Shown here in pieces: positions 24,697 to 62,093 of a stretch of DNA of 64,000 bases. The notes beneath the pieces were generated by a model, which saw nothing but the letters and a program-made list of their open reading frames with translations, made no database searches and was not told where the DNA came from. The translations under genes and the position numbers were made by a program. Position 1 is the first letter of the stretch. Each line of letters opens with the position of its first letter. The stretch spans positions 1,364,001 to 1,428,000 of the forward strand of contig OY730175.1 in NCBI GenBank assembly GCA_963422465.1. Direction: 5' to 3'. Source of the DNA: Lichina pygmaea (Eukaryota; Ascomycota; Lichinomycetes; Lichinales; Lichinaceae).

Positions 24697-25223
24697 TGTT
24701 ACGACCCAGGAGGAACACGGTCTTTTATACTCACACAAGCAGCAGACAGGATACTGATTGGAAGTACCAAACAGCACGACACGGGAGAGAGTCACGTGAC
24801 TGTCGAGACCGACCAGGGGTTGCTCGACACAGTGCGCATATGCATCGAGCATGGCGAGCCCAACTCGACCAGCTCGACACAGCGTGCATATGCAGCGAGA
24901 CTTTCGAGCACAGCTCGACAGGCTCGACAGTGAGCAAGGCGAGCACAGCTCGCTGAGCTCGAAAACTGAGCACTATATAGTCAGGCGATAGTTCCCTTAT
25001 GGAACGATCGTCTTCAACTCATGTTGTGATCCAGACAACTAGATCTACGGTACTTCAATACAAACCAGTCTTGTACGAAGCCACTGATCAGGTGTCATCA
25101 CCACCACGTTCCACCAAACCCCTTCGCGCTCCTTGACACTCCTCTCCTGCGAGAACCAACCCGCCTTCCGCATCTCGCCCTAATCCTACACTCGGGTAGG
25201 ACGGTACGGTACGGACCGCAACA
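24697..25223 (+). repeat. LTR of copy C, flipped relative to the interior
   Basis: Begins TGTTACGACCCAGG and ends ACCGCAACA, so it reads in the plus direction like the LTRs of copy A. The interior that follows is the 3' end of a minus-strand element and should be preceded by the reverse complement, as in copies B and D. No matching 5-bp duplication was found around it. CpG is largely kept, unlike most other LTRs here. It belongs to the LTR type without 42-bp hairpin repeats. Confidence 0.85.
24723..24729 (-). promoter_or_regulatory. Antisense TATA-like box in LTR
   Basis: Reads TATAAAA on the minus strand, 27 bases from the LTR end. In an LTR of normal orientation this box faces the antisense ORF; here the LTR is flipped, so it points into the host flank to the left. 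Confidence 0.45.
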
Positions 25224-25266
25224 CCTCCCTCCTCTCCATCTTTCATCGTCCCGATGAAACTTGGTC

Positions 25267-25764
25267 ATGCCTCCGAAGTCACGTGCGACTGTTAACCGAA
25301 GGCAGCTTGCTGCTCAGATCCGCGATCGGAACTTTGCATCACCTGTTCCCTGCGACCTCTGCGTTCTCCGTGGTCAACCGTGTTTCCAAATGCCGGAAGA
25401 AGGCAGTAAATTGAAGTGTGCTGAGTGCACTCGTCGTGGGAAGCCTTGTGTCTCTCTGTCCTGGGATTCCCTGAATATGGCCCGGGATAACCTTCGTGAG
25501 GGCCTGGCTGTTGAAGCAACACGAGATGCGCTCGTTGAACAACTTGCTGTGGCGCAGGCCCGTGTCTCTCGAAAGCGGAAGGTGTTGGAAGAGACCGAGG
25601 TTCGTGCGAAGCAGAAGCTTCAGTGTCTTGTGAAAGAGATGGAGTCAGATGGCGAGGATTTGACTGCGACGGTCATCGACATGTCCCTCCTGCAGGCCGA
25701 GCTCTTCAGTCCTGCCCCTGCTGGAACTGTCGCAGAAGAAGCTGGCAGTTCTCGAGGTTCTTAA
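25267..25764 (+). CDS. Antisense ORF of copy C: Zn2Cys6-like, coiled-coil protein
   Basis: Open frame of 165 residues on the strand opposite to gag-pol, between the 3' end of pol and the LTR. Residues about 38-70 hold six cysteines with spacing C-x2-C-x6-C-x11-C-x2-C-x6-C (CDLC, then KCAECTRRGKPC), which fits the fungal Zn(II)2Cys6 rule. Next come a charged helix with regular leucine/valine (about 90-145, including VSRKRKVLEE) and a Ser/Gly-rich end. The last 59 bases overlap, tail to tail, the end of pol on the other strand. A clear homologue sits in copy B and decayed ones in D and A. Role unknown; DNA binding is inferred from the spacing only. Not a host gene by position. Confidence 0.75.
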   Translation: MPPKSRATVNRRQLAAQIRDRNFASPVPCDLCVLRGQPCFQMPEEGSKLKCAECTRRGKPCVSLSWDSLNMARDNLREGLAVEATRDALVEQLAVAQARVSRKRKVLEETEVRAKQKLQCLVKEMESDGEDLTATVIDMSLLQAELFSPAPAGTVAEEAGSSRGS

Positions 25765-26407
25765 GTGGTTCCCGGGTATTTTCCAAGTCTGGGTATCCTT
25801 TCCACTTGATGAGGTATCGCTGACTTTTCTTAGCCAGAATTTGTTCAACTTTGAATTCCTGTTCCTCTTCAGGCTGGTAATGAAATGTCTCCTGCAAGGG
25901 TGTGCTCTGGTCGGCTGGTTCAATTATTAAGATATGAAAGTTTGGATGGACTCTGGCATCCCTTGGTAGTCGTATCTTGACATTGACTGGTCCTGTTCTT
26001 TTTTCAACCAAAAATAGTCTGACCTTGATGTTGTCAAGTTTCTTTGTCTTTGGTTTCTTTGTTTTCCAATTTTTTGTGAGGAGGTAGACTTTATCCCCCT
26101 TCTTCAGCTGAGGTGCCGTTTTTGATTTTTTGTCTATTTGGCACTGCATTTTCTTCAAGGTTTCTTGAAGGTAGTGCCTCATCATTATGTGTGTTTGCTG
26201 TAGTAGCTTGTCATGTTGGAGTGCTTTCTCTGTGCTTGGTGAAGCTTTGCTTGGCATTCTGATGTTTGCATGTTGTCCAAAGTTGGCAAAGAATAGTGAT
26301 TCCTTTGTTGAGTCTGATCTGTGCTGGTTAACTGCCAGCTGTGCCACTGGTAGTAGTTGTACCCAATTGCTGTGGGTCTGATTGATGTAATGCTGCAAGC
26401 AAGTCTC
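25706..26407 (-). pseudogene. Copy C pol 3' part: integrase C terminus and chromodomain
   Basis: Long open stretch with the integrase C-terminal region (QLKKGDKVYLL) followed by a chromodomain (VEQILAKK, KWKGYPDLENT), which in chromoviruses guides insertion to heterochromatin. Cut off at 26408 by the insertion of the small-LTR element. Confidence 0.85.
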
Positions 26408-26692
26408 TGTTAGGATCCCGGCCACCTAGCGGAGTCTGGGCGGTATCCTATCAAAGGTTCTAGCCAGCAGTGTGGCGGCAGAGGAACAGAGGAGATCCTT
26501 CGGGCCCTGGAGAGTCTCTAGTAGAGCGGTGGGACCGAGTCGGGGCAGGGCCGTCAGGCGCCTGCAGGTGGATGCGTAGATTGATCGCTGAGGATCCTAA
26601 TCCTCAGCGAGAAGTGCGCTATGTAGGAGCTGCTAGCTAAGCAGCTGACTAAGCGCGGTCAGGTGACAGGGGTAGCTCGGTTGCTCCTGACA
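26408..26692 (-). repeat. Small-family LTR, left copy
   Basis: 285 bp, plus strand starting TGTTAGGATCCCGG and ending GCTCCTGACA. Matches 44538-44822 along its whole length, with scattered transitions mainly at CpG. Confidence 0.9.
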
Positions 26693-26899
26693 CTACCCCC
26701 CCCCCTCAACCAACGTCGCCCCGACGTTGCAGTAGTCCACTGCTATAGCCTCGCTATAGCTCCTAGTAGGTTGGTCCTACCCCTGCCCGCCTAACTAGAG
26801 TTCACCTCTAGCTAGACTATTCTTTGTGCAGATCACTGTGAGAGTTATAGCTCTCTTTTCAGTTCAAGCACAGCACGCAGTCGGTGACTCAGTCGCTTC

Positions 26900-27835
26900 T
26901 GCTAACTAGGTACTTGCGGCATCCAGCCTAACAACTCCATCTCCACGACTAGGCCCCGAAGGCGCCGTGTCGATTCCGCCAGGTAAGTCTCAGCCTTTAG
27001 CTTTTGACCTCCTGTTGCAGCTAATAGGGCAGTCTTCGGCATATAGCCTACCGACTCCTTTTCGCAGTTCCAGAGCCCTGAAGGCACTCCACAGACAGCT
27101 CGGTGAGTCCTTGGCCAGTAGCCTTGTGACCCCCTTCTGCAGCCCAGCTACCAGCTGACTGCTTTCTAGGCAATCTCCAGCAGCAAGCTGTCGATCCCTC
27201 TCTCCGCGGCTGGGGCCTCAAAGGTGCCACACAGCCGACTGCCAGCAGGAGAGTCTTCGGCCTCTGGCCTCCCGACCCCCCTGTTGCAGATCAGTAGCTA
27301 ACTGATTGCTTTCTAGGTGATCTCCAGCAGTGAGCTGTCGATCCCTCTCTCCGTGGCTGGGGCCTTGAAGGTGCCACACAGCCGGCTGCCAGCAGGAGAG
27401 TCTTCGGCCTCTGGCCTACCAACTCTCTTTGCAGATCAGTTGCTAGCTGATCTTATAGGCAGTCTCTGGCTTGCAGCCATCAACTCCTCCCTCCGCGACT
27501 GGGGCTCCAAGAGCACCGCACAGTCAGTCTTTGGCAGGTGAGCTTTCAGCCTCTGGCCTAGTGACCCCCTCCCTGCAGATCAGCTACTAACTGATCTGTT
27601 AGGCAATCTCCAGCTTGCAGCTGTCGACCCCTCTCTCAGTGTGACTGTGTCCCGGAGGCGCACAGCCAGCTCTGCGGTAAGTCCTTGGCCTTTGGCCTAG
27701 CGACCCCCTGATGCAGATCAGTGGTTAACTGACTGCTTTCTTAGGTGATCTCCAGCTTGCAGCTGTCAATCCCTCTTGTGCGACTGGGGCCTTGGAGGCA
27801 CACAACAGCTGACTTCCCACAGTAAATCGATAGCC
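26900..27835. repeat. Tandem array, about 142-148-bp units
   Basis: At least five recognisable units carry a shared core (ATCTCCAGCAGCAAGCTG or ATCTCCAGCTTGCAGCTG) starting near 27171, 27319, 27462, 27604 and 27747; more diverged units lie to the left. Units include GATCAGT...CTAACTG and CTTTCTAGG words. Part of the interior of the non-coding LTR element; no coding potential seen. Confidence 0.75.
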
Positions 27836-28395
27836 TTAGCCTATAGCTAACTTATAGCTAGTACCTGGCACAGGCATTCACCCTCTGTGCTTGCACCTGT
27901 GGCTAGGGTGAGAGCTAGTCTCACCCTCACCCCCCCCTCTGCACCCGCCTCCTGGCGGGTGGAGAGTGTACTCCCTTTCTCCAACTACTAGCCCTGCCGG
28001 GCCCTCCTTCAGAGTAGCTTGCTAGACTCTGCTAGAGACTTCTCTGGCTAAGAGGTAGTCTTGTTGCGGTCCGTACCGTACCGTCCTATCCGAGTATAGG
28101 ATTAGGGCGAGAGGCGGAAGGCGGGTTGGTTCTCGCAGGAGAGGAGTGTCAAGGAGCGCGAAGGGGTTTGGTGGAACGTGGTGGTGGTGACACCTGATCA
28201 ACGGCTTCGTACAAAAGGATTGTATTGAAGTAGATCTAGTTGTCTGGATCACAACATGAGTTGAAGACGATCGTTCCATAAGGAAACTATCGCCGGACTA
28301 TATAGTGCTGGCCTGTCGAGACGATCGAGATTGTCTCGACAGTCTCGACGTCGAGACGGGTGAGATTGTCTCGACGGTCCCACCATGTTATGCAC

Positions 28396-28556
28396 CCTGC
28401 GTCGAGACTGGTGAGATTGTCTCGATGCTTCATGCATGCTGCGTCGAGACTGGTGAGATTGTCTCGATGCTTCATGCATGCTGCGTCGAGACTGGTGAGA
28501 TTGTCTCGATGCTTCATGCATGCTGCATCGAGACTCCCGTGTGTGTCTCGACAGTC
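28396..28556. repeat. 42-bp hairpin units in LTR centre
   Basis: Nearly four direct units of 42 bp. Each contains GTCGAGAC, about 10 bases, then GTCTCGAT (7-bp arms), followed by the palindromic word TGCATG. Present in the LTRs of B, D and the solo LTR with varying copy number; absent from the LTRs of A and C. Confidence 0.85.
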
Positions 28557-28626
28557 ACGTGACCCCTTGTTGGTTGGTCACTTGACTTCCATGGTGTCCT
28601 CTTGCCTGGCCCGCGGCCTGATTGCC

Positions 28627-28633
28627 TATAAAT
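28627..28633 (+). promoter_or_regulatory. TATA-like box facing the antisense ORF
   Basis: TATAAAT, 30 bases from the LTR end and exactly 80 bases upstream of the antisense ORF ATG at 28707. The same box and spacing occur in copy D (47572 to 47652). Inferred promoter; no expression evidence. Confidence 0.5.
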
Positions 28634-28706
28634 GAGTGGCTCCCATCCCCTGGGTCGTAACACTACCCTTCTCTCCTTCATTCATCGTCCCGATGAATTC
28701 TTGAGT

Positions 28707-29207
28707 ATGTCTGCAAAATCACGTGCCTCTGCTTACCAAAACCAACTGGTAGCCCAGATCTGTGATCATAACTTTGTGTCGCTTGCTCCGTGTGACTTCT
28801 GTGTTTTGAACCACAAGCCCTGCTTCCGAATGTCTGACGACAACGATAAATTGAAGTGCGCTGAATGCACTCATCGTGGGAAGTCCTGTGTGTCACTTTC
28901 TTGGGAGTCACTGAACATGACTCGGGATAACCTTCGCGAGGATTTGGCTGTTGATGAGGCCAAGCGGGATGCTCTTGTTGAGCAGCTTGCCGAGCTGCAG
29001 GCTCGTGTGTCCCGAAAGCGAAAGGTTCTTGAAGTTGCTGAAGTCCGAGCAAAGAAGAAGCTCCAGTGCCTTGTTGCTGAAATGGAGGCGGATGGTGAAG
29101 ACTTGTCAGCAACAGTCATTGACGCGTCTGCGCTGCAGGCCGAGCTGTTCAGTCCTGCCTCTGCCGGAACTGCTGCAGGAGGAGCTGGCAGTTCGCGAGG
29201 TTCCTGA
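28707..29207 (+). CDS. Antisense ORF of copy B: Zn2Cys6-like, coiled-coil protein
   Basis: Open frame of 166 residues, collinear with the copy C ORF over its whole length. The cysteine array (CDFC, then KCAECTHRGKSC) has the same C-x2-C-x6-C-x11-C-x2-C-x6-C spacing, followed by DALVEQLAELQARVSRKRK and a charged helix. The last 59 bases overlap the end of pol on the opposite strand. That it stays open while gag-pol of the same copy is broken may reflect selection, or only its position in the CpG-rich, less decayed end. Start chosen at 28707; an earlier ATG at 28693 meets a stop at once. Confidence 0.75.
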   Translation: MSAKSRASAYQNQLVAQICDHNFVSLAPCDFCVLNHKPCFRMSDDNDKLKCAECTHRGKSCVSLSWESLNMTRDNLREDLAVDEAKRDALVEQLAELQARVSRKRKVLEVAEVRAKKKLQCLVAEMEADGEDLSATVIDASALQAELFSPASAGTAAGGAGSSRGS

Positions 29208-31282
29208 GTGGTTCCCAGGTATTTTCCGAGTCTGGGTAGTTTTTCCACTTGACAAGGTATCGCTGACCTTTTCTCTTCAAGATCTGTTTGACCTTGAATT
29301 CCTGTTCTTCCTCTGGTTGGTAATGAAATGTTTCCTGCAAGGGTGTACTCTGGTCGGCTAATTCAATCATTGAGATATGAAAGTTTGGGTGTACCCAAGT
29401 GTCTCTCGGTAGTTGCAGTCTGATGTTGACTGGTCCAGTTTTTTCTTTGACTGAAAATGGTCTGACCTTGACATAGTCCAGTTTCTTTGTTCTTGGTTTC
29501 TTCGTTTTCCAATTTCTTGTGAGGAGGTAGACTTTATCCCCTTTCTTTAGCTGAGGTGCTATTTTGGATTTCTTGTCCATTTGACGTTGCATTCTTTCTG
29601 AGGTCTCTTGAAGGTAGTGCCTCATCATCGTGTGCGTTTGTTGTAGGAGCTTGTCATGTTGGAGTGCTTTCTCCGCGTTTGGTGAAGCTCTGCTTGGTAT
29701 CCCGATGTTTGCATGTTGTCCAAAATTGGCAAAAAATGGTGATTCCTTTGTTGAGTCTGATCTGTGCTGGTTGATTGCCAGCTGTGCCACCGGTAATAAC
29801 TGTACCTAATTGCTGTGGGTCTTGTTGATGTAATGCTGTAAGTAAGTCTCCAGGACTTGGTTTGCTCACTCTGTCTGGCTGTCAGTTTGTGGGTGATAGG
29901 CCGTAGACATTTTGGGTTTTGTTCCCATGGCTGCACTGATTGTCTTCCAGTAGTTGGATGTGAAGAGTTTGTCTCTGTCTGTAATGATTGTGATCAGAAC
30001 TCCGTGGTCTCTGACCAATCTGTCTAGTAATAGGTGTCCCAACTGTTCTGCTGTGTGGGTCTCCTTGAATAGTACCACTATTAGATATTTTGTGAATCTG
30101 TCCACTATCACCATAATCAAGTCGTAGGTGATTCCTGTGACTGGGTCTTTGGACTTGGGTAGCTTCGTGATAAAGTCTATTGACACGTCTTCCCACAGGC
30201 CTCTTGGTATCATGTTCGGATGTTCTTCTCCATATGGCTTATGTCTTCCATGTTTGTTTTTCTGGCATAGTAGACACTTGCTGATGTAGTTTGTGACATG
30301 TTGTCAGAGGTTAATGATATTGTTCCCTGCCCGTTGGATAAGGTCTGTGGTCTTGGAGATTCCTGGGTGACTATGTGCTGGATTATCGTGGTAGTTCCTT
30401 ATTAGTTCTTCAGTGTCTTCTGCTGTGAGCTTGTTGATCTGTGGTTGAGGCACCAGGTTTCCTTGCTAGTCCTGCTGTAAGATTGTTCCTTGGTGTTCAT
30501 CATCTTCCATGTGGTCTTTTTGTCAGCTTAGTGCGTCTGCTCTCCTATTATCTTGTCCAGGGGTGTACAAGATCTTGAACTTGTGTTGCCCTAGGAGTTC
30601 AGCCCATCTGACTTGCCATCTGTTCAGCTTCTTGGTTGTCGTGAACATTGTCAGATTCTTGTGGTCTGTGAGAACAGTGAGTTCAGAACTGCTTTCCACG
30701 TACACTCTCCAGTGTTCAAGTGTGTTGACGACTGCCAGTAGCTCTTTGTCATGGATATCATAGTTTTGTTCCGCTTGTGTTATTTTTTGTGAGTAGTAGG
30801 CAACTGGGTGCCACTTGCCATCTGCCTGTTGGCATAGACATGCTCCCACTGCCTGATCTGAAGTGTCCATCTTGATTTGTGTCAGTTGGCCTGTCTTGAA
30901 GTTGAGGAGAACTGGTTCCTTGGCGCAAGTGTCCTTGAGCTGTTAGAATGCTTTTTGTTGTCTCTCTGTCCACCAGTACTCCATGTCCTTCTTTGTGAGT
31001 TCTGTCAGTAGTGTTGCCATCTGTGAGTAGTTCTTTATGAACTGTCAGTTGAAGTTGGCAAATCCTAGAAAGGCTTGTACTTCCTTAACTGATGTCGGTG
31101 TTGGCTATTGCTGAATCACTTTGATTTTCTCAGAGTCAATCTTGATCCCTTTGATCCCTATGACATATCTGAGGAATTCAACTTCTGGTTTGTTGAACTC
31201 GCATTTCTTTGGGTTGAGCTTGAGCTCTGCCTGTTGTAGGCATTGTAGAACATCCTTCACGTGTTTGGTATGTTCCTGTTAC

Positions 31283-32420
31283 CCAAACTCCACTGGCACA
31301 AACACCAGAGAATTATTCTTCAAAAAGCACAAAAAGCACTATCTTCTCTTTCTAGAACCTCTTACTCCACCTGGGGCTTTCCAGTTCTCACAGCACGCCT
31401 TGTGTACACTGCAATACTCAGATCTGTACTGAGCTATGCAGTGGGAATTTGGTTCAACCCACTCAGAAAATCCTCTAATATTTCCTCTCTTATCATATTC
31501 CAAAACAAATGTCTGAGACTTATTGGGGGTGCTTTCAAAGCCACTCCTTCTTTTCTATTAGAGAGTGAGCTTTTTCTTTTACCTCTAGATCTCTATTTTA
31601 AATTTCGCACAGCTTGTTTTCTATCTTCTATCCAAACCTCCTCTCTGAAAGACTTTCTTGACAGTACCTTTTCTACTATTTCTTCCTATGCTTCTTCACT
31701 GAGGAAACCTTTAAAGAAATCCTCAACTATCTCTCCTAATTGGAAGTTCACTTGGTTAAGTCAAATAACTACTAACCAGGCTAGTTCAAAGAAAGAACTA
31801 CAAATACTCTTTACTAAAGAGTGGGAAAACCAATGGGAGAAGAAGAAAAGAAAAGGCTATGCTGGATGGCAGGTGTTTTGCCAAAAACCTCACTACAACA
31901 ACCTAAAGCTCTACAAAGAGCTACAGAAAGCTGACGCAAGTCTACTACTGCAAACCAGAACTGGGAGAATTGGTCTAGCAAGTTTTCTTTTCAGAGCTGG
32001 AGTCCCTGACTTTCCTACCCCCCTATGCATGTGTGGTCAAGCAGAAGAGACAGTAAAGCATATCACCTCTTCATGCTCTCTCTACTCAAGTCAAAGACAA
32101 CATGCTCTCTTTAACCCCCAAGATTTCACTACTATTATTTCAAACCCAGAGCTTCTACAGAAGTTTCTGTACTGGTTTATGTCTTTGAAAAGACTAAACC
32201 AATTTAATCTGGCTTTCAAACTTCACTATTCACACTCCAACATCTAGAAGCTTTTCCTACCAGACACTACAAGATTTCCTTTTGCTACACTTTCTAGTCA
32301 CCTCCCTGTCTTCAGTTTTTATTCCTTTAAAGGTTTTCTGAAGAAGTTCACTATTAGCTGGAAGATCTGCATGGCTGTAAAGCTACAAACAGTGTAAGAA
32401 TCAAATCAAATCAAAAAAAA
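31283..32420 (+). mobile_element. 5'-truncated Tad1-like LINE inserted in copy B
   Basis: Matches 60959-62093 of the full-length LINE nearly base for base (a handful of differences in 1.1 kb), covering the end of ORF2 (C-terminal 320 residues, open, stop at 32245-32247), 3' UTR and TCAAA/A-rich tail. A 13-bp target duplication (ATGTTCCTGTTAC) lies at 31270-31282 and 32421-32433. It sits within the reverse transcriptase region of copy B. The low divergence compared with the decayed host element shows a recent insertion. Confidence 0.95.
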
Positions 32421-35155
32421 ATGTTCCTGTTACATGTTTGAGTAGACAAGAATGTTGTCCAGGTAGGCAATAGCTGTTTAGTCCAGGTGTGCTCTGATGA
32501 TGTTGTTGATCAATGCTTGACATGTTGCTGGTGTGTTCGTGAGTCTGAATAGTATAACCAGATACTTGTAGTGTCTGTATCAGGTTCTGAAAGCTGTCTT
32601 CCATTCTTCTCCTTCTTTCATGTGTATCAGGTTGTATGCTTCTTTCAAGTCCAGCTTGGTAAAGATTGTAGCTTGGCTGATCCTGTCTCGCAATTTGTTT
32701 GCATTTGGCAACAGATATCAGTTCTTGATGGTAATGTTGTTGAGTTTCCTGTAATCCACACAAAGTTGAAGACTTCTGTCTTTCTTTAGTGCAAATAGTA
32801 TCGGGTATCCTGCTGGCAATTGAGATTCTTGAATGAAACCTTTTTTCAGGTTTTCCTCCAGGTACTCGCGAAGTACTTGGAGCTCTTTCTCTGATAACTG
32901 GTAAATTAGTCCAAATCCTGGCTCTGTCCCTGGTTGCAACTTGATCTCATGATCCCAAGGTTAGTGCTTAGGCAACACTGCTGTCGTTGTCTCTTCCTGA
33001 AAGAGGTTATCATACCCAGGTCAGTACTCTTCAGAGATCTCCAGAGGGTTAACAACTTCCTCTCTCTTCATCTCTGACTGTTTGGCCACCTGGTTCTGGA
33101 GTGTGCCTGTCAAGGCAGACCTCTTCTCTTGAGAGTTGTCCTTTCTGTCAGTGAGGTTCCACTGAGGACTCCTTCCCTCATCTGTCCATGCCTTCTGCGG
33201 CTGGTAACAGGTCTGAGCTGTGTTGTTAGTGCAGTTCCTAAACATGAGTACTCCTGTCTTCCAGTTAACAACTGGGTTGTGCTTCTTTAGCCAAGGCATC
33301 CCCAAATAGATATCCTGAGTGGCCAACTCAACAATATCAAGGTGGATCCTTTCAGCATAGTGTCCGGTAACTATTTCCATTAGCTGCATCTCATGGCAGA
33401 CTAGCTCTGTCTGTCTATTTGCTATCGCGAGCTGATAGGGCTGCTGCTTGCGTCTCCTTCCAGTGCCAAGGGTGTTGTAAAGTTGTCTTGAGATGTAGTT
33501 TCCACTGGCTCCAGAGTCAACAAGTGCGTATGTCTGTACTGGCATGTTGGTGTGTAGTGACACAGGTAATCACAGGTGCTTTGTGTTGCTAGGGGTCATG
33601 TTGTTGAGCTCCTGATGTCACCCCTTGACAAGGGAGTTCAGTCTTTTCCTGATTGAAGTGTCTTTCCACTGACTGGGCAATGGGTCCAGCTATTCTCATC
33701 AGTCCTGAGGAATCTGTTCATGAATTTATCTTGCTGATGCTTGTCACATCCAGGCTTGAGGCAGTACTGCCAATTGTTGACGTAGCAGTTGTGGTTGTTG
33801 CCTTGCTGTAGGAACATGAGGTGTTTGTGCCAATCATGTGTGTGTCCGGGGAATGTGGTGTGTTAGTGTTTGTCCCAAAGATAGATCTCACACACATCCT
33901 TCTCGCAATTGACCCAATGCTTGTGGCAGGTGGTGTGGTAGGGTGAATGTCCTCTGTACCTTTGTAGTTGTTTGTGGTAGGTGCAGTAGTGCTTCATGCA
34001 AAACCTCCACTGTAGTTCACTGTGCTGTAGATTTCGTGGGTCTATACTGTAAGCATAGCTTCCTTGTAGTATTTCTTCTTTGATAGACATAGGTTTGTCT
34101 CAGTCTCTATCAGAGGTGGTTAAGAGCTCCTGTCCCTTGTCCTGACCTGTCTGTTCTGGTAGGTCCTTACCTCCTGATGTTGCCAGTTGGTGGGCTGCTT
34201 CCAATGTCTGATCATAGTTGTCCTATTGTTCAAGGGATAGCTGAGCCTCTCCTGGTGAGTCCTCTGGCTTGATAACATTCCAGTCTCTGTCAAGTGTATT
34301 AAGTTGCTGTCAGTGCAGCTTGTTCTTTGAACAACAGTCTTTCACCATGTGGTCTAGCTTGCCACAGACATAGCACTTCAGTGCTTTCCCCTTTGTATTG
34401 TTCCTTCCCTTCGTGAACCTTCCCTTGTGGTGGACTGCATCCAGTTCCATGGGTGCATAGCTATATAGGTCATGTGGTGGTGCCTTGTTAGGTGGCTTGT
34501 AGTGGTTGCTCACATGCCATGCAGGGTGGCTGTATCCTCTGTCGTGGTGTTTCTCCATCGCTCACTCAAATAGTTTGTCATCGATGTTGATTGCTTGTGT
34601 GATGAGTTTGTCCAGTGTGTTGACTGCTTGTCTGTCAAAGGTGATTTCATTCTTCATGTTTTCCTTGAGTCCACGTCAGTACATGACCATCAGGGCATTG
34701 TTGTCCCAGTCAGTCAGTACTGAGTATTGTTTGAACTGCGTGGTGTACTCTGCAGCTGAGTGTTGTTGCTTGATGTGCTGGATCATTCGTATAGCCACTT
34801 TGTCTTTGTTAGATAGTCTAAGGATTCTTTTGATCTTGTCCTTGAATCACATCCATTTTGTTATCCATTCTGTTGTGCTGTCGTGGTCTCTGTTTCCTGA
34901 GAGATGTTTGTTGACGTAGGGCTTGATCCATCAATAAGTATTACCTCTCATGTAAGTGGTTGTGAAGAGGGGCCACTTTTCCTTAGGCAGCTTTGTCTCT
35001 GGTTGGAATTGAAAGTAGACTTGGAGTTGTATAAGCCAGTCGTCAACCTTGTTTCTTTCGCTGTAGAACAGGTCTGGCTTGGCGACACTAATCTTTCTGT
35101 CTGGGAAGTTGGGGTTGGTTACTCCTGAGGTACTTATCCTTGAGGGTCTTCAAAG

Positions 35156-35756
35156 TGTTGTGGTCTGTACTGTACTGTCCTATCTGAGTATAGGATTAGG
35201 GTGAGAGGTGGAAGGCAGGTTGGTTCTTGCAGGAGAGGAGTGTCAAGGAGTGCGAAGAGGTTTGGTGGAACATGGTGGTGGTGACACCTGATCAACAGCT
35301 TCGTACAAAAGGATTGTATTGAAGTAGATCTAGTTGTCTGGATCACAACATGAGTTGAAGACAATTATTCCATAAGGGAACTATCACTGGACTATATAGT
35401 GCTGGCCTGTCAAGACAATCAAGATTGTCTTGACAGTCTTGACATCAAGACAGGTGAGATTGTCTTGATAGTTCCACCATGTTATGCACCCTGTGTCAAG
35501 ACTGGTGAGATTGTCTTGATGCTTCATGCATCCTGTGTCAAGACTGGTGAGATTGTCTTGATGCTTCATGCATCCTGTGTCAAGACTGGTGAGATTGTCT
35601 TGATACTTCATGCATGCTGTGTCAAGACTCCTGTGTGTGTCTCGACAGTCACATAACCCCTTGTTGGTTGGTCACTTGACTTCCATGGTGTCTTCTTGCC
35701 TGGTCTGCAGCCTGATTGCCTATAAATAAGTGGCTCCCATCCCCTGGGTCGTAACA
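35156..35756 (-). repeat. 5' LTR of copy B, CpG-depleted
   Basis: 601 bp partner of 28072-28662 with the same 42-bp hairpin units in the centre. Differences are dominated by CpG to TpG/CpA on both strands, so an LTR clock would overstate age. Confidence 0.92.
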
Positions 35757-39300: not shown

Positions 39301-41677
39301 TATTAAGAACTACTCACAGATGGCAACACCACTGACAGAACTCACAAAGAAGGACGTGGAGTACCGGTGGATGGAGAGACAACAAAAAGTATTCCAACAG
39401 CTCAAGGACACTTGCACCAAGGAACCAGTTCTCCTCAACTTCAAGACAGGCCAACCAACACAAATCAAGACAGACACTTCAGATCAGGCAGTGGGAGCAT
39501 GTCTATGCCAACAGGCAGACAGCAAGTGGCACCCAGTTACCTACTACTCACGAAAAATAACACAAGCAGAACAAAACTATGATATCCACGACAAAGAGCT
39601 ACTGGCAGTTGTCAACACACTTGAACACTGGAGAGTGTACGCGGAAAGCAGTTTTGAACTCACTGTTCTCACAGACCACAAGAATCTGACAACATTCATG
39701 ACAACCAAGAAGCTGATTAGACAGCAAGTCAGATGGGCTGAACTCCTAGGGCAACACAAGTTCAAGATCTTGTACACCCCTGGACAAGACAACAGGAGAG
39801 CAGACACACTAAGCTGATGAAAAGACTATATAGAAGATGATGAATGCCAAGGAACAATCTTACAACAGGACCAGCAAGAAAACCTAGTACCTTGACCACA
39901 GATCAACAAGCTCACAGCAGAAGACACTGAAGAACTAATAAGGAACTACCACAATAATCCAGCACATGGTCACCCAGGAATCTCCAAGACCACAGACCTT
40001 ATCCAACAGGCAGGGAACAATGTCATTAACCTCTGACAACATGTCACAGGCTACATCAGCAAGTGTCTACTATACCAGAAAAACAAACATGGAAGACATA
40101 AGCTATACAGAGAAGGACACCCGAACACGATACCGAGAGGCTTGTGGGAAGATGTGTCAATAGACTTCATCATGAAGCTATCCAAGTCTAAAGACCCAGT
40201 CACAGGAATCACCTACAACTTGATTATGGTGATAGTGGACAGATTTACAAAATATCTAATAGTGGTACTATTCAAGAAAACCCACACAGCAGAACAGTTG
40301 GGATACCTCTTACTGGACAGATTGGTCAGAGACCACAGAGTTCCAATCACAATCATTACAGACAGAGACAAACTCTTCACATCTAACTACTGGAAGACAA
40401 TCAGTGCAGCCATGGGAACAAAACCTAAAATGTCTACAGTCTATCATCCACGAACTGACAGCCAGACAGAGCAAGCAAACCAAGTCCTGGAGACTTACTT
40501 ACAGTATTACATCAACCAGACCCACAGCAATTGGGTACAATTATTACCAGTGGCACAGCTGGCAATCAACCAGCACAGATCAGACTCAACAAAGGAATCA
40601 CTATTTTTTGCCAATTTTGGACAACATGTGAACATCAGGATGCCAAGCAGAGCTTCACCAAACATGGAGAAAGCACTCCAACATGACAAGCTCCTACGAC
40701 AAACACACATGATGATAAGGCACTACCTTCAAGAGACCTCAGAAAGAATACAACATCAAATAGACAAGAAATCAAAAATAGCACCTCAGCTAAAGAAGGG
40801 GGATAAAGTCTACCTCCTCATAAGAAATTGGAAAACAAAGAAACCAAGAACAAAGAAACTTGATAACATCAAGGTCAGACTATTTTCAGTCGAAGAAAAA
40901 ACAGGACCAGTCAACATCAAGATACGACTACCAAGGGATGCCAGAGTCCATCCAAACTTTCATATATTGATGATTGAACCAGCCGACCAGAGCACACCCT
41001 TGCAGGAAACATTCCATTATCAACCTGAAGAAGAACAAGAGTTTGAAGTTGAACAGATCCTGGCTAGGAAAGGTCAGCAATACCTTGTCAAAGTGGAAAG
41101 GATACCCAGACTCGGAAAATACCTGGGAACCACTCAAGAACCTCGCGAACTGCCAGCTTCTTCTGCAACAGTTTTGGCAGGAGCAGGACTGAACAGCTCA
41201 GCCTGCAGGAGGGATGTGTCAATGACTGATCAAGTCAAATCCTCACCATCCAACTCCATCTCTTTCACCAAGCACTGAAGCTTCTGCCTTGCACAGACCT
41301 CAGCACTCTCCAACATCTTTCACTTCCAAGACAGACAAGCCTGCACTGTGGCAAGTTATTCAAAGAGTGTGTTGCGTGTTGCCTTGTCAGTGGCCACATT
41401 CTCACGGAGGTTGTCCCAGGACATGTTCAGAGATTCCCAGGACACAGAGACACAAGACCTTCCGTGCCAAGTGCACGCAGCACATTTCAACTTATCATCT
41501 TCTCCTGATATCTGGAAGCACGGATGACCACAGAGAACATAAAAGTCGCAGGGCGTACATGAAACAAAACTCTGATTGTGGATTTGAGCAGTAAGCTGAG
41601 TTCAGCTAACAGTCGCACGTGACTTTGGAGGTATGACCAGATTTCATCAAGATAATAAAAGATGGAGAGGAGGATAG

Positions 41678-47651: not shown

Positions 47652-48135
47652 ATGTCTGCAAAATCACATACCTCTACTTACCGAAAACAACTGGCAGCCC
47701 AGATCTGTGATCATAACTTTGTGTTGCTTGCTCTGTGTGACTTCTGTGTTTTGAACCACAAGCCCTGCTTCCAAATGTCTGACAACAACAATAAGTTGAA
47801 GTGTGCTGAATGCACTTGTCATGGGAAGTCCTGTGTGTCACTTTCTTGGGAGTTGCTGAACATGACCCAAGATAACCTTTGCAAGGATTTGGCTTTTGAT
47901 GAGGCCAAGTGGGATGCTCTTGTTGAGCAGCTTGCCAAGCTGCAGGCTTGTGTGTCCTGAAAGTGAAAAGCTCTTGAAGGTGCTGAGGGTTGAGCAAAGA
48001 AGAAGCTCCAGTGCCTTGTTGCTGAGATGGAGGTAGATGGTGAAGACTTGTCAGCGATAGTTATTGACACATCCACACTGCAGGCCAAGCTGTTCAGTTC
48101 TACTGCTGCCAGAACTGCTGCAGAAGGAGCTGGCA
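47652..48135 (+). pseudogene. Decayed antisense ORF of copy D
   Basis: Same start and cysteine-array region as the open copies in B and C, CpG-depleted and broken further along. Its presence shows the ORF is a regular part of this family rather than a passenger of one copy. Confidence 0.75.
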
Positions 48136-51100
48136 GTTCATGAGGTTCCTGAGTGGTTCCCAGGTATTTTCTGAGTCTGGGTAGTTTTTCCACTTGATAA
48201 GGTATCGCTGACCTTTTCTCTTCAAGATCTGTTTGACCTCAAATTCCTGTTCTTCCTCTGGTTGGTAATGAAATGTTTCCTGCAAGAGTGTGCTCTGGTC
48301 AGCTAATTCAATCATTGAGATGTGAAAGTTTGGGTGTACCTGAGTATCTCTCAGTAGTCGCAGTCTGATGTTGACTGGTCCAGTTCTTTCTTCAACTGAA
48401 AATAGTCTGACCTTGACATAGTCTAGTTTCTTTGTTCTTGGTTTCTTGACTTTCCAATTTTTTGTGAGGAGGTAGACTTTATCCCCCTTCTTCAGCTGAG
48501 GTGCCATTTTTGATTTTTTGTCTATTTAGCACTGCATCTTTTCTGAGGTCTCTTGAAGGTAATACCTCATCATCATGTGTGTTTATTGTAGGAGCTTGTT
48601 ATGCTGGAGTGCTTTCTCTGTGTTTGGTGAAGCTCTGCTTGGCATTCTGATGTTTACGTGTTGTCTAAAATTGGTAAAGAATAGTGATTTCTTTGTTGAG
48701 TCTGATCTGTGCTGGTTCATTGCCAGCTGTGCCACTGGTAATAATTGTACCCAATTGCTGTGGGTCTGGTTGATGTAATACTGTAAGTAAGTCTCCAGGA
48801 CTTGGTTTGCTTGCTCTGTCTGGCTGTCAGTTTGTGAGTGATAGACTGTAGATATTTTGGGTTTTGTTCCCATGGCTGCACTGATTGTTTTCCAGTAGTT
48901 GGATATGAAGAGTTTGTCTCTGTCTGTAATGACTATGATTGGAACTCCGTGGTCTCTGACCAATCTGTCCAGTAGGAGGTGTCCCAACTACTCTGCTGTG
49001 TGAGTTTCCTTGAATAGTACCACTATTAGATATTTTGTAAATCTGTCCACTATCACCATAATCAAGTTGTAGGTGATTCCTGTGACTGGGTCTTTGGACT
49101 TGGGTAGCTTGGTGATAAAGTCTATTGACACGTCTTCCCACAGACCTCTTGGTATTGTGTTCAGGTGTCCTTCTCTATATGGCTTGTGTTGTCTATGTTT
49201 GTTTCTCTGGCATAGTAGACACTTGCTGATGTAGTTTATGACTTATTGTCAGAGATTGATGACATTGTTCCCTGCCTTTTGGATAAGGTCTGTGGTCTTG
49301 GAGATTCCTGGGTGACCATGTGCTGGATTGTCGTGGTAGTTCCTTATTAGTTCTTCAGTATCTTCTGCTATAAGCTTGTTGATCTGTGGTTGTGGTACCA
49401 GGTTTCCTTGCTAGTCCTGCTGTAAGATCATTCCTTGGTGTTCATCATCTTCTATGTGGTTTTTTTGTCAGATTAGTGTGTCTGCTCTTCTATTATCTTG
49501 TCTGGGGGTGTACAAGATCTTAAACTTGTGTTGCCCTAGGAGTTCAGCCTATCTGACTTGCTGTCTGTTCAGCTTCTTGGTTGTCGTGAATGTTGTCAGA
49601 TTCTTGTGGTCTGTGAGAACAGTGAGTTCAGAACTACTTTCCACGTACACTCTCCAGTGTTTGAGTGTGTTGACAACTGCCAGTAGCTCTTTGTTGTGGA
49701 TATCATAGTTTTGTTCTGCTTGTGATATTTTGTGTGAGTAGTAGGTGACTGGGTGTCACTTGCCATCTGCCTGTTGGCATAAACATGCTCCCACTGCCTG
49801 ATCTGAAGTGTCTGTCTTGATTTGTGTCAGTTGGCCTGTCTTGAAGTTGAGGAGAACTGGTTCCTTGGCACAAGTGTCCTTGAGCTGTTGGAATACTTTT
49901 TGTTGTCTCTCTGTCCACTGGTACTCCACATCCTTCTTTGTGAGTTCTGTCAGTGGTGTTGCCATCTGTGAGTAGTTCTTAATGAACTGTCAGTTGAAGT
50001 TAGCAAATCCTAGGAAGGCTTGTACTTCCTTAACTGATGTCAGTGTTGGCTATTGTTAAATCACTTTGATTTTCTCAGGGTTGATCTTGATCTCTTTGAT
50101 TCCTATGATGTATCTGAGGAATTCAACTTCCAGTTTGTTGAACTTGTATTTCTTTGGGTTGAGCTTGAGCCCTGCTTTTTGTAGACATCGTAGAACATCC
50201 TTCACATGTTTGGTATGTTCCTGTTGCGTGTTTGAGTAGACAAGAATGTTGTCCAAGTAGGTGATAGCTGTTTGGTCTAGGTATACTCTGATGATGTTGT
50301 TGATCAATGCTTGACATATTACTGGTGTGTTCGTGAGTCCGAATAGCATAACCAGATACTTGTAGTGTCTGTATCAGGTTCTGAAGGCTGTCTTCCATTC
50401 TTCTCCTTCTTTCATGTGTATCAGGTTGTATACTTCTTTCAAGTCCAGCTTGGTGAAGATTGTAGCTTGGCTGATCCTGTCTTGCAATTTGTTCACATTT
50501 GGCAACAGATATCAGTTCTTGATGGTAATGTTGTTGAGTTTCCTGTAGTCCACACAAAGTTGAAGACTTCTGTCTTTCTTTGGTGCAAATAGTATCAGGT
50601 ATCCTGCTGGCAATTGAGATTCTTGAATGAAACTCTTTTTCAGGTTTTTCTCCAGGTACTCGCGAAGTACTTAGAGCTCTTTCTCTGATAACTGGTAAAT
50701 TAGTCCAAATCCTGGCTCTATCCCTGGTTGCAACTTGATCTCATGATCCCAAGATTGGTGCTTAGGCAACACTGCTGTCATTGTCTCTTCCTGAAAGAGG
50801 TTATCATACCCAGGTCAGTACTCTTCAGAGATCTCCAGAGAGTTAACAACTTCCTCTCTCTTCATCTCTGACTGTTTGACCACCTGGTTCTGGGGTGTGC
50901 CTGTCAAGGCAGACCTCTTCTCTTGAGAGTTGTCCTTTCTGTCAGTGAGGTTCCACTGAGGACTCCTTCCCTCATCTGTCCCCACCTTCTGCGGCTGGTA
51001 ACAGGTCCGAGCTGTGTTGTTAGTGCAGTTCTTAAATGTGAGTACTCCTGTCCTCCAGTTAACAACTGGGTTGTGTTTCTTTAGCCAAGGCATCCCCAAA

Positions 51101-58680: not shown

Positions 58681-61600
58681 AGAATACAAAGTTCACACTT
58701 CTTCAATACAATGTGCAGAAAAGCCAATCAGTCCAAGAGCTACTTCTAGCAACCCCAACTCTTCAAGAAGTAGATATTATTGCACTTCAAGAACCCTGGA
58801 AGAATCCTCACCTTCAAACCAGCACCTCAACTGTTTTTTCTTCTTTTCTTCCTTTATATTCTCCAGAGATTGGTAGAACTCTTTTTCTTATTAACAAAAA
58901 CCTGAATCTGTCATCTCTCCACCCTACTTTCTGGAGTAAAGACTTTGTTTCTATTGAAATTCATCTGGAAAACACCTCTACTTCTCTGTGGGTGCATAAT
59001 CTATACTTCACTCCCTCAAGTCAAGAGAACTACCTACAAGCATCAGAAGCTCTTCTCTGTCTACTCCAAAATGCTTTACAAGCAAAAGGGCAGCATATTC
59101 TTCTTACAGACTCAAATCTTCACCACCCTGACTGGTCAAAGAAAAGAAGACTATATTCTGACACTGCACACAAGTTCCAAACTCTAATGAAAAACTCAAA
59201 TCTGGAGTTAGCTATTGCACCTTTTACACCCACAAGAGCTAGATCTCTTTCCCACAAACCCTGTTCACCTATTGATCTTTCCTTTATATCTTCTTCTCTT
59301 TCTAACTCTCTAATCTTTTCTAAAATTGCTTTGCAGTTCTTTCATAAGTCTGACCACAGACCTGTGCTAACTAGCCTGGACCTGGACTCACCAAGAAAAA
59401 CCTGGAAGCCAGAAAGGAACTGGAAAACACTGGACACAAACCTGGCAAAACAAGAGTGTAATAATTTGCAGCTGCCCTTCCACTTTCAAGATAAACATGA
59501 AGTGGATGAGTACTTGGAATATCTTAACCACTTTCTCCAAGAAATAGCAGACAGATGCACAGAACTCCAGAAGCAATCTAGCCACTCAGTCCCCTGGTGG
59601 AACCAAGAGATCCAAACTAAAGTTAAGCAGGAAAGAAGAATAAGAAGACAAGTGCTCAGAGGACAGGCAAGCCAAGAAGAGCTAGAAGAAGCAACTAAGC
59701 TCAAGAAGAAAGCTGTCAGAGAAGGCAAACAGAACACCTTCAGAAAACAAGTTCATGAGCTAGCCAGTTCCTCAAAATTCTGGAAGCTTGCAAAGTGGGG
59801 AAAATCAAAAGCTAACAAGACCCCTGATCTTCCTCTGGTCCCTGATCTGGAGACTCAAGAAGGACTAGCCAAAAGCTTTGAGGAGAAGACAAAATCTTTC
59901 TCAGCTCAATTCTTTCCAGAAGCACGTGTTCCAGAACCAAGTACAGAAAATCACCAGAGTACTCCAGAGATCCAGCTTTCTCAGGAGGTTACCACTGAAG
60001 AAGTGGAGCAAATTCTGAACAAGAAGAAACCTTTTACAGCAGGAGGAAAAGACAAGCTGCCAAATGGATTTCTGAAAGCTCTGGGTCCCAAGTTCTGCCA
60101 AGCTATAGCTGTTCTCACATCAACATGCTGGAGACTGGAATACTTTCCAGAGAAATTCAAGAATGCAAAAACAGTCTGTCTAAGAAAACCTGGCAAGGGA
60201 ATCTATAACCAAGCTAAAGCCTGGCGCCCTATAGCTCTGCTAAACACAACTGGCAAGCTGATGGAAGCTATTACAGCAGCCAGACTAAGCAAGGTAGCAG
60301 AAGAGGCTAAACTCTTGCCAGAAATCCAGATGGGGTTCAGGAAAGGCAGATCAACTGAATCAGCACTTTTCCTTCTAACTTCCCAAGTGGAAAAAGTCTG
60401 GAAAGAAGGCATGGTTGCATCTCTACTTTCTCTGGACATCTCAGGAGCATATGACAGAGTTCTTCCAGAGATTCTTCAAAAGATTCTGGAGAGAAAAGGA
60501 ATCCCTCTCTGGCTAACTTCTTGGATCTTCTCTTTCTGTACCAGACGTACCACCACTCTAGTTTTTGATGACTCTGAGTCCTCTTCTATTCCTATTCACT
60601 GTGGAGTTCCCCAAGGTTCCCCTTTGTCTCCTATTCTTTTTCTATTCTATATTTCTGAACTTCATGAGACTGTACATTCTCCTACTACTGGTGTTTCTGC
60701 TCTGGGATTTGCAGATGATACAAATCTGCTTGCATTTGGACACTCTCTTAAAAGCAACCTTCTGAAGTTGAAGAATACACATCTTAAATGTCTATCTTGG
60801 GCTGCAAGACATGGAATAGTCTTCTCTCCTGAGAAATATGAAATACTTCATTTTTCCAGAAGAAGATCAGACAATCTGCAGCTCAAGCTTAGACTTGGGA
60901 ATGTGATTCTAAAACCAAAAGAAGAAGTGCGAGTATTGGGAGTGCACCTGGATGCCAAACTCCACTGGCACAAACACCAGAGAATTATTCTTCAAAAAGC
61001 ACAAAAAGCACTATCTTCTCTTTCTAGAACCTCTTACTCCACCTGGGGCTTTCCAGTTCTCACAGCAGGCCTTGTGTACACTGCAATACTCAGATCTGTA
61101 CTGAGCTATGCAGTGGGAATTTGGTTCAACCCACTCAGAAAATCCTCTAATATTTCCTCTCTTATCATATTCCAAAACAAATGTCTGAGACTTATTGGGG
61201 GTGCTTTCAAAGCCACTCCTTCTTTTCTATTAGAGAGTGAGCTTTTTCTTTTACCTCTAGATCTCTATTTTAAATTTCGCACAGCTTGTTTTCTATCTTC
61301 TATCCAAACCTCCTCTCTGAAAGACTTTCTTGACAGTACCTTTTCTACTATTTCTTCCTATGCTTCTTCACTGAGGAAACTTTTAAAGAAATGCTCAACT
61401 ATCTCTCCTAATTGGAAGTTCACTTGGTTAAGTCAAATAACTACTAACCAGGCTAGTTCAAAGAAAGAACTACAAATACTCTTTACTAAAGAGTGGGAAA
61501 ACCAATGGGAGGAGAAGAAAAGAAAAGGCTATGCTGGATGGCAGGTGTTTTGCCAAAAACCTCACTACAACAACCTAAAGCTCTACAAAGAGCTACAGAA

Positions 61601-61919
61601 AGCTGAGGCAAGTCTACTACTGCAAACCAGAACTGGGAGAATTGGTCTAGCAAGTTTTCTTTTCAGAGCTGGAGTCCCTGACTTTCCTACCCCCCTATGC
61701 ATGTGTGGTCAAGCAGAAGAGACAGTAAAGCATATCACCTCTTCATGCTCTCTCTACTCAAGTCAAAGACAACATGCTCTCTTTAACCCCCAAGATTTCA
61801 CTACTATTATTTCAAACCCAGAGCTTCTACAGAAGTTTCTGTACTGGTTTATGTCTTTGAAAAGACTAAACCAATTTAATCTGGCTTTCAAACTTCACTA
61901 TTCACACTCCAACATCTAG
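58677..61919 (+). CDS. LINE F ORF2, endonuclease and reverse transcriptase
   Basis: 1080 residues. An APE-type endonuclease occupies about residues 1-230 (LLQYNVQKS, IIALQEPW, DSNLHHPDW, SDHRPV), which nicks target DNA. Reverse transcriptase spans about 430-740, with RPIALLNT, LDISGAYDRV, GVPQGSPLSPILF and the catalytic FADD at about 678. The C-terminal region ends in a Cys/His motif CMCGQAEETVKHITSSC (about 1008-1024), common in Tad1/CgT1-type LINEs. I see no RNase H domain between reverse transcriptase and this motif. It begins four bases before the end of ORF1. Confidence 0.95.
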   Translation: MKNTKFTLLQYNVQKSQSVQELLLATPTLQEVDIIALQEPWKNPHLQTSTSTVFSSFLPLYSPEIGRTLFLINKNLNLSSLHPTFWSKDFVSIEIHLENTSTSLWVHNLYFTPSSQENYLQASEALLCLLQNALQAKGQHILLTDSNLHHPDWSKKRRLYSDTAHKFQTLMKNSNLELAIAPFTPTRARSLSHKPCSPIDLSFISSSLSNSLIFSKIALQFFHKSDHRPVLTSLDLDSPRKTWKPERNWKTLDTNLAKQECNNLQLPFHFQDKHEVDEYLEYLNHFLQEIADRCTELQKQSSHSVPWWNQEIQTKVKQERRIRRQVLRGQASQEELEEATKLKKKAVREGKQNTFRKQVHELASSSKFWKLAKWGKSKANKTPDLPLVPDLETQEGLAKSFEEKTKSFSAQFFPEARVPEPSTENHQSTPEIQLSQEVTTEEVEQILNKKKPFTAGGKDKLPNGFLKALGPKFCQAIAVLTSTCWRLEYFPEKFKNAKTVCLRKPGKGIYNQAKAWRPIALLNTTGKLMEAITAARLSKVAEEAKLLPEIQMGFRKGRSTESALFLLTSQVEKVWKEGMVASLLSLDISGAYDRVLPEILQKILERKGIPLWLTSWIFSFCTRRTTTLVFDDSESSSIPIHCGVPQGSPLSPILFLFYISELHETVHSPTTGVSALGFADDTNLLAFGHSLKSNLLKLKNTHLKCLSWAARHGIVFSPEKYEILHFSRRRSDNLQLKLRLGNVILKPKEEVRVLGVHLDAKLHWHKHQRIILQKAQKALSSLSRTSYSTWGFPVLTAGLVYTAILRSVLSYAVGIWFNPLRKSSNISSLIIFQNKCLRLIGGAFKATPSFLLESELFLLPLDLYFKFRTACFLSSIQTSSLKDFLDSTFSTISSYASSLRKLLKKCSTISPNWKFTWLSQITTNQASSKKELQILFTKEWENQWEEKKRKGYAGWQVFCQKPHYNNLKLYKELQKAEASLLLQTRTGRIGLASFLFRAGVPDFPTPLCMCGQAEETVKHITSSCSLYSSQRQHALFNPQDFTTIISNPELLQKFLYWFMSLKRLNQFNLAFKLHYSHSNI

Positions 61920-62093
61920 AAGCTTTTCCTACCAGACACTACAAGATTTCCTTTTGCTACACTTTCTAGTCACCTCCCTGTCTTCAGTTTTTATTCCTTT
62001 AAAGGTTTTCTGAAGAAGTTCACTATTAGCTGGAAGATCTGCATGGCTGTAAAGCTACAAACAGTGTAAGAATCAAATCAAAATCAAAAAAAA

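Follow-up and report, generated by a model that had tools for sequence, protein, structure and literature searches.

A 64,000-nucleotide (nt) stretch of the ascomycete Lichina pygmaea genome (contig OY730175.1, positions 1,364,001 to 1,428,000; hereafter the window) contains Ty3/Gypsy chromoviruses, retrotransposons bounded by long terminal repeats (LTRs) and encoding a chromodomain at the C-terminus of pol. These elements belong to a family that carries an antisense accessory gene, located between pol and the 3' LTR. This gene, named aORF (antisense open reading frame), almost certainly encodes a protein, and comparison of its sequence types indicates that it is held by purifying selection. 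The product consists of a six-cysteine domain followed by a predicted long helix. The aORF and the neighbouring U3 region of the LTR form one divergent module, whose types are matched and which lies between similar pol and U5 sequences. From the analysis as a whole, the chances appear about even that the aORF protein is a regulator of its own LTR, in the manner of HBZ from human T-cell leukaemia virus type 1 (HTLV-1). The likelihoods expressed here and below are overall judgements and not computed values.

The most complete view of this arrangement is given by element B (28062-35756), whose sense strand is the minus strand. Its two LTRs, of 601 base pairs (bp), are located at 28062-28662 (3' LTR, minus strand) and 35156-35756 (5' LTR, minus strand) and match at 91%; the antisense strand of the former runs into the aORF. 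The latter (28707-29207, plus strand) is an open frame of 166 amino acids plus a stop, antisense to gag-pol. Copy C (25267-25764, plus strand) has 165 amino acids plus a stop and represents a separate type. These are the two frames of about 165 residues that an earlier sequence-only reading of the window had described, and the decayed versions that it placed in two further elements were recovered by tblastn: a D-type aORF with four stops and loss of the second cysteine in element D (41137-41634, minus strand) and a B-type aORF, also with four stops, in element A (47652-48149, plus strand). In B and C alike, the aORF and pol overlap tail to tail by 59 nt. The C-terminal part of pol matches SH3_Tf2-1 and the chromodomain, both in B (29149-29790, minus strand; PF00385, 5.1e-16; PF24626, 1e-11) and in C (25706-26425, minus strand; PF00385, 6.5e-12; PF24626, 2.4e-8), and the Pfam domains gag-asp_proteas, RT_RNaseH and rve, for protease, RNase H and integrase, are found in other frames of the host element.

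The genome (32.47 Mb, 8 contigs) yielded 508 aORF candidates at first look; scoring was applied to the best 150, and all of these matched. It thus contains at least 150 copies, 30 of these 150 being devoid of in-frame stops according to a hand count. Among 70 of these loci, fetched for locus-level counts, 40 carry a D-type, 28 a B-type and 2 a C-type aORF. The end of pol lies in antisense orientation downstream of the aORF in 68 of the 70, and a normally oriented LTR U5 is located upstream of it in 66. The reverse approach, starting from 150 matches to the pol end, provided 10 loci chosen as unseen in the aORF list: all of them carry a B-type aORF, one being broken in two, and no fourth type occurs among these 10. 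The link to Gypsy copies expected by the sequence-only reading therefore holds across the genome. Outside it, one scan of viral contigs gave six pattern matches, none of them confirmed, the contigs of other genomes being unscanned; sequence searches of the PDB with the aORF protein gave nothing convincing.

The ratio of non-synonymous to synonymous substitutions (dN/dS, Nei-Gojobori) was calculated for four D, four B and one C copies, picked among the open or little-decayed ones. It ranges from 0.13 to 0.17 between D and B (16 pairs, dS 1.12-1.49), from 0.19 to 0.25 between D and C (4 pairs) and from 0.12 to 0.13 between B and C (4 pairs). The conservation of the protein between copies with different LTR centres, and the excess of synonymous change by which the sequence-only reading proposed to check it, are thus both borne out, with values of 0.12-0.25 between types. 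Differences between types are concentrated at the third codon position (e.g., 32/27/75), and the ratio is 0.18-0.20 in three B-D pairs once CpG transitions are removed. Since the adjacent end of pol (last 417 nt) gives a similar range (0.13-0.22, 4 pairs), the constraint on both appears alike.

Differences within types, drawn from copies picked in the same way, are pairwise counts that repeat shared changes. In 12 B-type copies, all 1041 of the 1041 differences are transitions, 803 of them at CpG, and the remaining non-CpG changes show a near-neutral non-synonymous to synonymous ratio of 175:63; this points to the decay of young copies rather than to constraint. In 8 D-type copies, 395 of the 409 differences are transitions, 315 are located at CpG, and the non-CpG changes are mostly synonymous (26.5:67.5). 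Such a decay by transitions, chiefly at CpG, would create the many TGA stops and looks like methylation-linked mutation or mutation of the repeat-induced point mutation (RIP) type.

The six cysteines of the aORF protein follow the spacing C-x2-C-x6-C-x11-C-x2-C-x6-C, as announced by the sequence-only reading. This spacing is exact in B and C, where the domain extends from C29 to C61 (28791-28889 and 25351-25449 respectively, both on the plus strand, the latter from the translation), and none of the six cysteines varies among 25 open copies chosen for comparison. Fungal Zn2Cys6 regulators follow the rule CX2CX6CX5-12CX2CX6-8C, to which the aORF spacing conforms. The segment between the second and third cysteines (within CDLCVLRGQPC, CDFCVLNHKPC or CDFCVLRGRPC) has no basic core like that of nine Zn_clus domains of the host. 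In Zn2Cys6 domains, basic residues between these cysteines contact DNA. An hhalign comparison with the nine host domains pairs each of the six cysteines with its counterpart (E 0.0053, probability 6.8), and none of 200 column shuffles reaches this profile score, although this control is weak because shuffling also breaks the CxxC pairs. A similar score (E 0.0048), restricted to the first half, was obtained with DUF3716 from four host genes, a profile from which three loci with a stop were left out; here, 1 of 200 shuffles reaches the score. In the Pfam search, DUF3716 (PF12511) was listed for 1 of the 25 copies (E 0.055, below the 22-bit cut-off) and zf-PHD-like (PF15446) for 13 (best E 0.0029, 17.6 bits, below the cut-off of 27). 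DUF3716 was rejected as the true family, given this score and its different cysteine spacing. A DUF3716 frame is also found in three closely similar copies (L083, L086 and L087) that share the same stop and may sit in another repeated element. As for Zn_clus, the host genome has 27 matches at E values up to 0.001, which is few for a filamentous ascomycete.

The helix that the sequence-only reading placed after the cysteines is predicted by AlphaFold2 in both types, as a long helix and possible coiled coil covering residues 66-128 in B (28902-29090, plus strand) and 66-127 in C (25462-25647, plus strand). In the C-type model, the predicted local distance difference test score (pLDDT) of the helix block is 86-96 over residues 81-130 and lower before; in the B-type model, which has the higher mean pLDDT, it is 89-98 over residues 71-130. 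The block of the zinc region scores 44-56 in C and 48-71 in B. With Foldseek, all 15 PDB chains weakly matched by the C-type model at E<=10 come from Zn2Cys6 proteins or from a complex with one (HAP1, Leu3, Put3, Pho7 and the CBF3 complex, whose matched chain we take to be its Zn2Cys6 protein). A fold search of BFVD with an aORF model gave nothing convincing. Zinc binding by the protein is very probable, and zinc binding together with dimerisation is likely. The odds of a true Zn2Cys6 fold are about even, and membership of this family is not established. Of the Zn2Cys6-like character claimed by the sequence-only reading, the spacing is confirmed and the cysteines align with those of host domains; the Pfam cut-off was missed and the two AlphaFold2 models disagree.

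The region upstream of the aORF has the layout of a probable promoter. A TATA motif in antisense orientation precedes the aORF ATG by 75-77 nt in 40 of the 40 D-type loci and by 79-80 nt in 26 of the 28 B-type loci, i.e., in 66 of 68 although the U3 of the two types do not align; a narrower motif had matched 37 of the 40 D-type loci. It should be emphasized that these counts are consensus matches and not proof of function. In element B, the motif (TATAAAT, 28627-28633, plus strand) lies 80 nt before the ATG at 28707, itself separated by 45 nt from the LTR edge at 28662. From these positions, a start set by this TATA box would fall approximately at the LTR edge. The frame of B is also open from an upstream ATG at 28632, which was set aside since it overlaps the antisense TATA box, making 28707 the likely start. 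A candidate polypurine tract (28663-28679, minus strand) adjoins the 3' LTR, and its complement would belong to the 5' untranslated region of the aORF. At 287-505 nt, the opposite limit of U3 bears another TATA-like site (CTATATAG; 28298-28305, minus strand, in element B). This candidate sense TATA box occurs in 27 of the 28 B-type loci; for the D type, 38 of the 40 loci were shown and 37 of these have it. Tandem units of 42 bp (B) or 50 bp (D) lie between the two sites; in element B, Tandem Repeats Finder defines 3.5 units of 42 bp with 97% matches (28390-28535). This arrangement suggests that an antisense promoter within the 3' LTR probably drives the aORF.

Two other features of U3 deserve mention. 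A palindrome, GTCACGTGAC (28554-28563; also L002 and L034), is located near the antisense TATA box in both of the otherwise non-aligning U3 types and is a possible site for a host basic helix-loop-helix or basic leucine zipper (bZIP) protein. In 7 of the 10 B-type loci obtained from the pol matches (L088, L091-L095 and L097), the 42-bp repeat (28390-28535 in the window), which corresponds to 14 codons, opens a frame on the aORF strand that is itself repetitive and some 100 codons long, probably as a by-product of its period.

An alignment of five loci locates the divergence of the element. Identity between D and B is mostly 90-99% in pol, about 84-92% near its chromodomain end and 62-80% in most of the aORF; the U3 regions are not alignable and U5 returns to about 96-99% (L004 and L034 only, L035 being interrupted by another element). 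The aORF type is that of the U3 repeats in 38 of the 40 D and 27 of the 28 B loci, and the two types are crossed in none of the 65 scored loci; three loci with few repeats or a truncated LTR, as well as the two C loci, were left unscored. This pattern fits block-wise recombination of the element's 3' end. The pairing between aORF and U3 can be read as a regulator matched to its target, and equally as simple linkage.

Copy C is probably a rearranged copy, because the LTR that adjoins it (24697-25224, plus strand) is inverted relative to 66 other loci. In the other locus of this type, L032, the sole LTR is likewise inverted, with its junction elsewhere, inside the aORF. The C type is therefore known, among the 70 fetched loci, from two such rearranged loci only, and in both (L001 and L032) the inverted LTRs are found at different junctions near the start of the aORF. 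Integration of a cDNA into itself is one possible cause of inverted LTRs. Element B has also undergone an insertion: a nested sequence (31283-32420) shares 99% identity with 60955-62093, and its long frame looks, by eye, derived from a long interspersed nuclear element.

In the proposed mechanism, RNA polymerase II would start near the LTR edge from the antisense TATA box and produce a short mRNA. The aORF protein would dimerise through its long helix, bind zinc through its six cysteines, enter the nucleus and bind the tandem repeats that lie, in the U3 of its own family, between the two TATA boxes, sense and antisense. This binding would set the balance between sense (genomic) and antisense transcription. 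The overall scheme would resemble that of HBZ, i.e., a zipper-type regulator, antisense and driven by the 3' LTR, that acts on this same LTR. It is favoured by the low dN/dS between types, the near-constant position beside pol, the antisense TATA box at a fixed distance, the agreement of aORF and U3 types, the long helix predicted in both models and the Zn2Cys6 chains matched by the C-type model. Several results weigh against such a regulator. The aORF reaches the cut-off of no protein family: the search of the Zn_clus profile suggested by the sequence-only reading did list 1 of the 25 copies, but at 8.2 bits (E 3.6) for a cut-off of 21 bits, and zf-PHD-like is listed for more copies (13 of 25 versus 1 of 25). 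The 15 chains matched by the C-type model correspond to about five proteins, with a best E of 0.38 and a probability of 0.21, and the B-type model matched only four weak chains, none of Zn2Cys6 proteins, KAP1 (E 4.1) and TRIM21 (E 4.7) coming first. The heptads of the copy C helix are moderate (65% hydrophobic residues at a/d in the best register versus 42% overall), and neither of the two C-type loci has an antisense TATA box before the ATG. Set against 1000 shuffles, the inverted repeats of the U3 units are weak, with 1 (count) and 125 (arm) for D, 275 and 51 for B, and 276 and 683 for C; for this reason, the palindromes of U3 were not retained as proof that a dimer binds there. Lastly, the match between aORF and U3 types can be explained by the plain linkage of neighbours.

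The other explanations differ in the level at which the aORF would act. That it is a chance open frame or the mirror of a sense coding sequence is hardly conceivable. In one B-D pair, the mirrored minus-strand frame also shows a lowered dN/dS (0.27), but its stops number two to four per copy in three copies, and none of the minus-strand frames over the aORF is free of them (one to four). In the same pair, the aORF frame has a ratio of 0.16 without inner stop, four of the five other frames exceed 1, and the overlap with pol is limited to the last 59 nt. These six-frame controls led to the rejection of this explanation. Antisense transcripts are considered possible regulators of LTR elements in a review (PMC7264820), so that the RNA could be the functional product, acting by RNA-level silencing, with an incidental open frame. 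The codon-level constraint revealed by dN/dS largely refutes this idea, which is also at odds with six invariant cysteines and a length that differs by one codon among the three types; we regard it as very improbable.

The protein could also act outside transcription, as a zinc-binding helical accessory factor involved in nuclear import, particle assembly or integration targeting, without sequence-specific DNA binding. The resemblances to Zn_clus, DUF3716, PHD-like and B-box domains are indeed all weak and the aORF overlaps the chromodomain end of pol. However, the aORF type follows the U3 type and not the bulk of pol, and its likely promoter is located in the LTR, at a distance from gag-pol. 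Such a function is possible but doubtful. A further proposal, which seems improbable, is that the aORF serves to repress the element or to control its copy number, each type silencing the LTRs that bear its own U3 repeats, with aORF and U3 as a specificity module. In its favour, the divergence is shared by aORF and U3, with pol and U5 remaining mostly 90-99% alike, and no crossed types occur among the 65 scored loci; conversely, any recombination moves neighbouring sequences together, and B and D exist alongside each other, both in many copies. In a related but unlikely version, aORF and U3 would constitute a swappable control module, in which the zinc-motif dimeric regulator of each type recognises only its own U3 repeats. 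If so, families with almost identical pol would be controlled independently, like the repressor-operator immunity types of phages.

Returning to the regulator of its own LTR, the constraint comparable to that of the pol end, the fixed place of the probable promoter in the LTR and the joint divergence with U3 make a direct test of LTR self-control possible. If this regulation is real, one and the same control scheme would have arisen in retroviruses and in fungal elements from different protein domains.

Several domains and systems resemble the aORF in part. Like the fungal Zn2Cys6 regulators HAP1, Leu3 and Put3, the aORF protein has six cysteines, aligned one to one with those of host Zn_clus domains, followed by a helix, but it remains below the cut-off, has no basic core between the second and third cysteines, and its B-type model is unmatched. 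DUF3716, likewise fungal, also has six cysteines, including two CxxC pairs, whereas its usual spacing is x9 or more, x10, and x8 or more in three of four host sequences, as compared with x6, x11 and x6 in the aORF; the fourth host sequence is devoid of one cysteine. The zf-PHD-like domain and the TRIM B-box plus coiled coil bear a weak resemblance to the aORF, their matches not being significant.

Among mobile elements, HBZ of HTLV-1 is also an antisense gene, transcribed from the 3' LTR, and encodes a zipper-type regulator of its own LTR, whose activation it inhibits (PMC3185765). It differs as a bZIP protein of a retrovirus, and homology is not claimed. In plants, the antisense ORFs of Retand (TRP28 domain) and Grande (gene23) are also located between pol and the 3' LTR with tandem repeats nearby, and their products are described as nuclear or putatively DNA-binding (PMC11963269, PMC7264820). 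They encode another domain; Retand is a non-chromovirus with its repeats placed between pol and the 3' LTR and not in U3 as here, and Grande has its promoter upstream of gene23. The function of antisense genes of LTR retrotransposons is described as unknown in PMC7264820.

The closest counterpart is brtn, the antisense gene of Boty-like Gypsy elements from Botrytis cinerea (Zhao et al. 2011, Virology 417:248; cited through passages of PMC8365987, PMC7264820, PMC4227169 and PMC5987419), a Boty-like element with chromodomain being listed in the passage of PMC4227169. As far as these passages go, brtn also belongs to a fungal Gypsy element with chromodomain and occupies the interval from pol to the 3' LTR, so that the sequence-only reading, which knew of no described fungal chromovirus with a Zn2Cys6-like antisense ORF, overstated the novelty. 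The comparison is by description only, and these passages report neither a zinc motif, nor a selection test, nor an LTR pairing for brtn. In the literature searched, as far as it was accessible, brtn was found and no antisense ORF with a zinc motif from a fungal element; the word "antisense" does not occur in PMC3248453 and PMC2774666. Antisense genes in such elements are thus already known, while a protein of this zinc-motif type, and the way it is paired with the promoter region, seem to be new.

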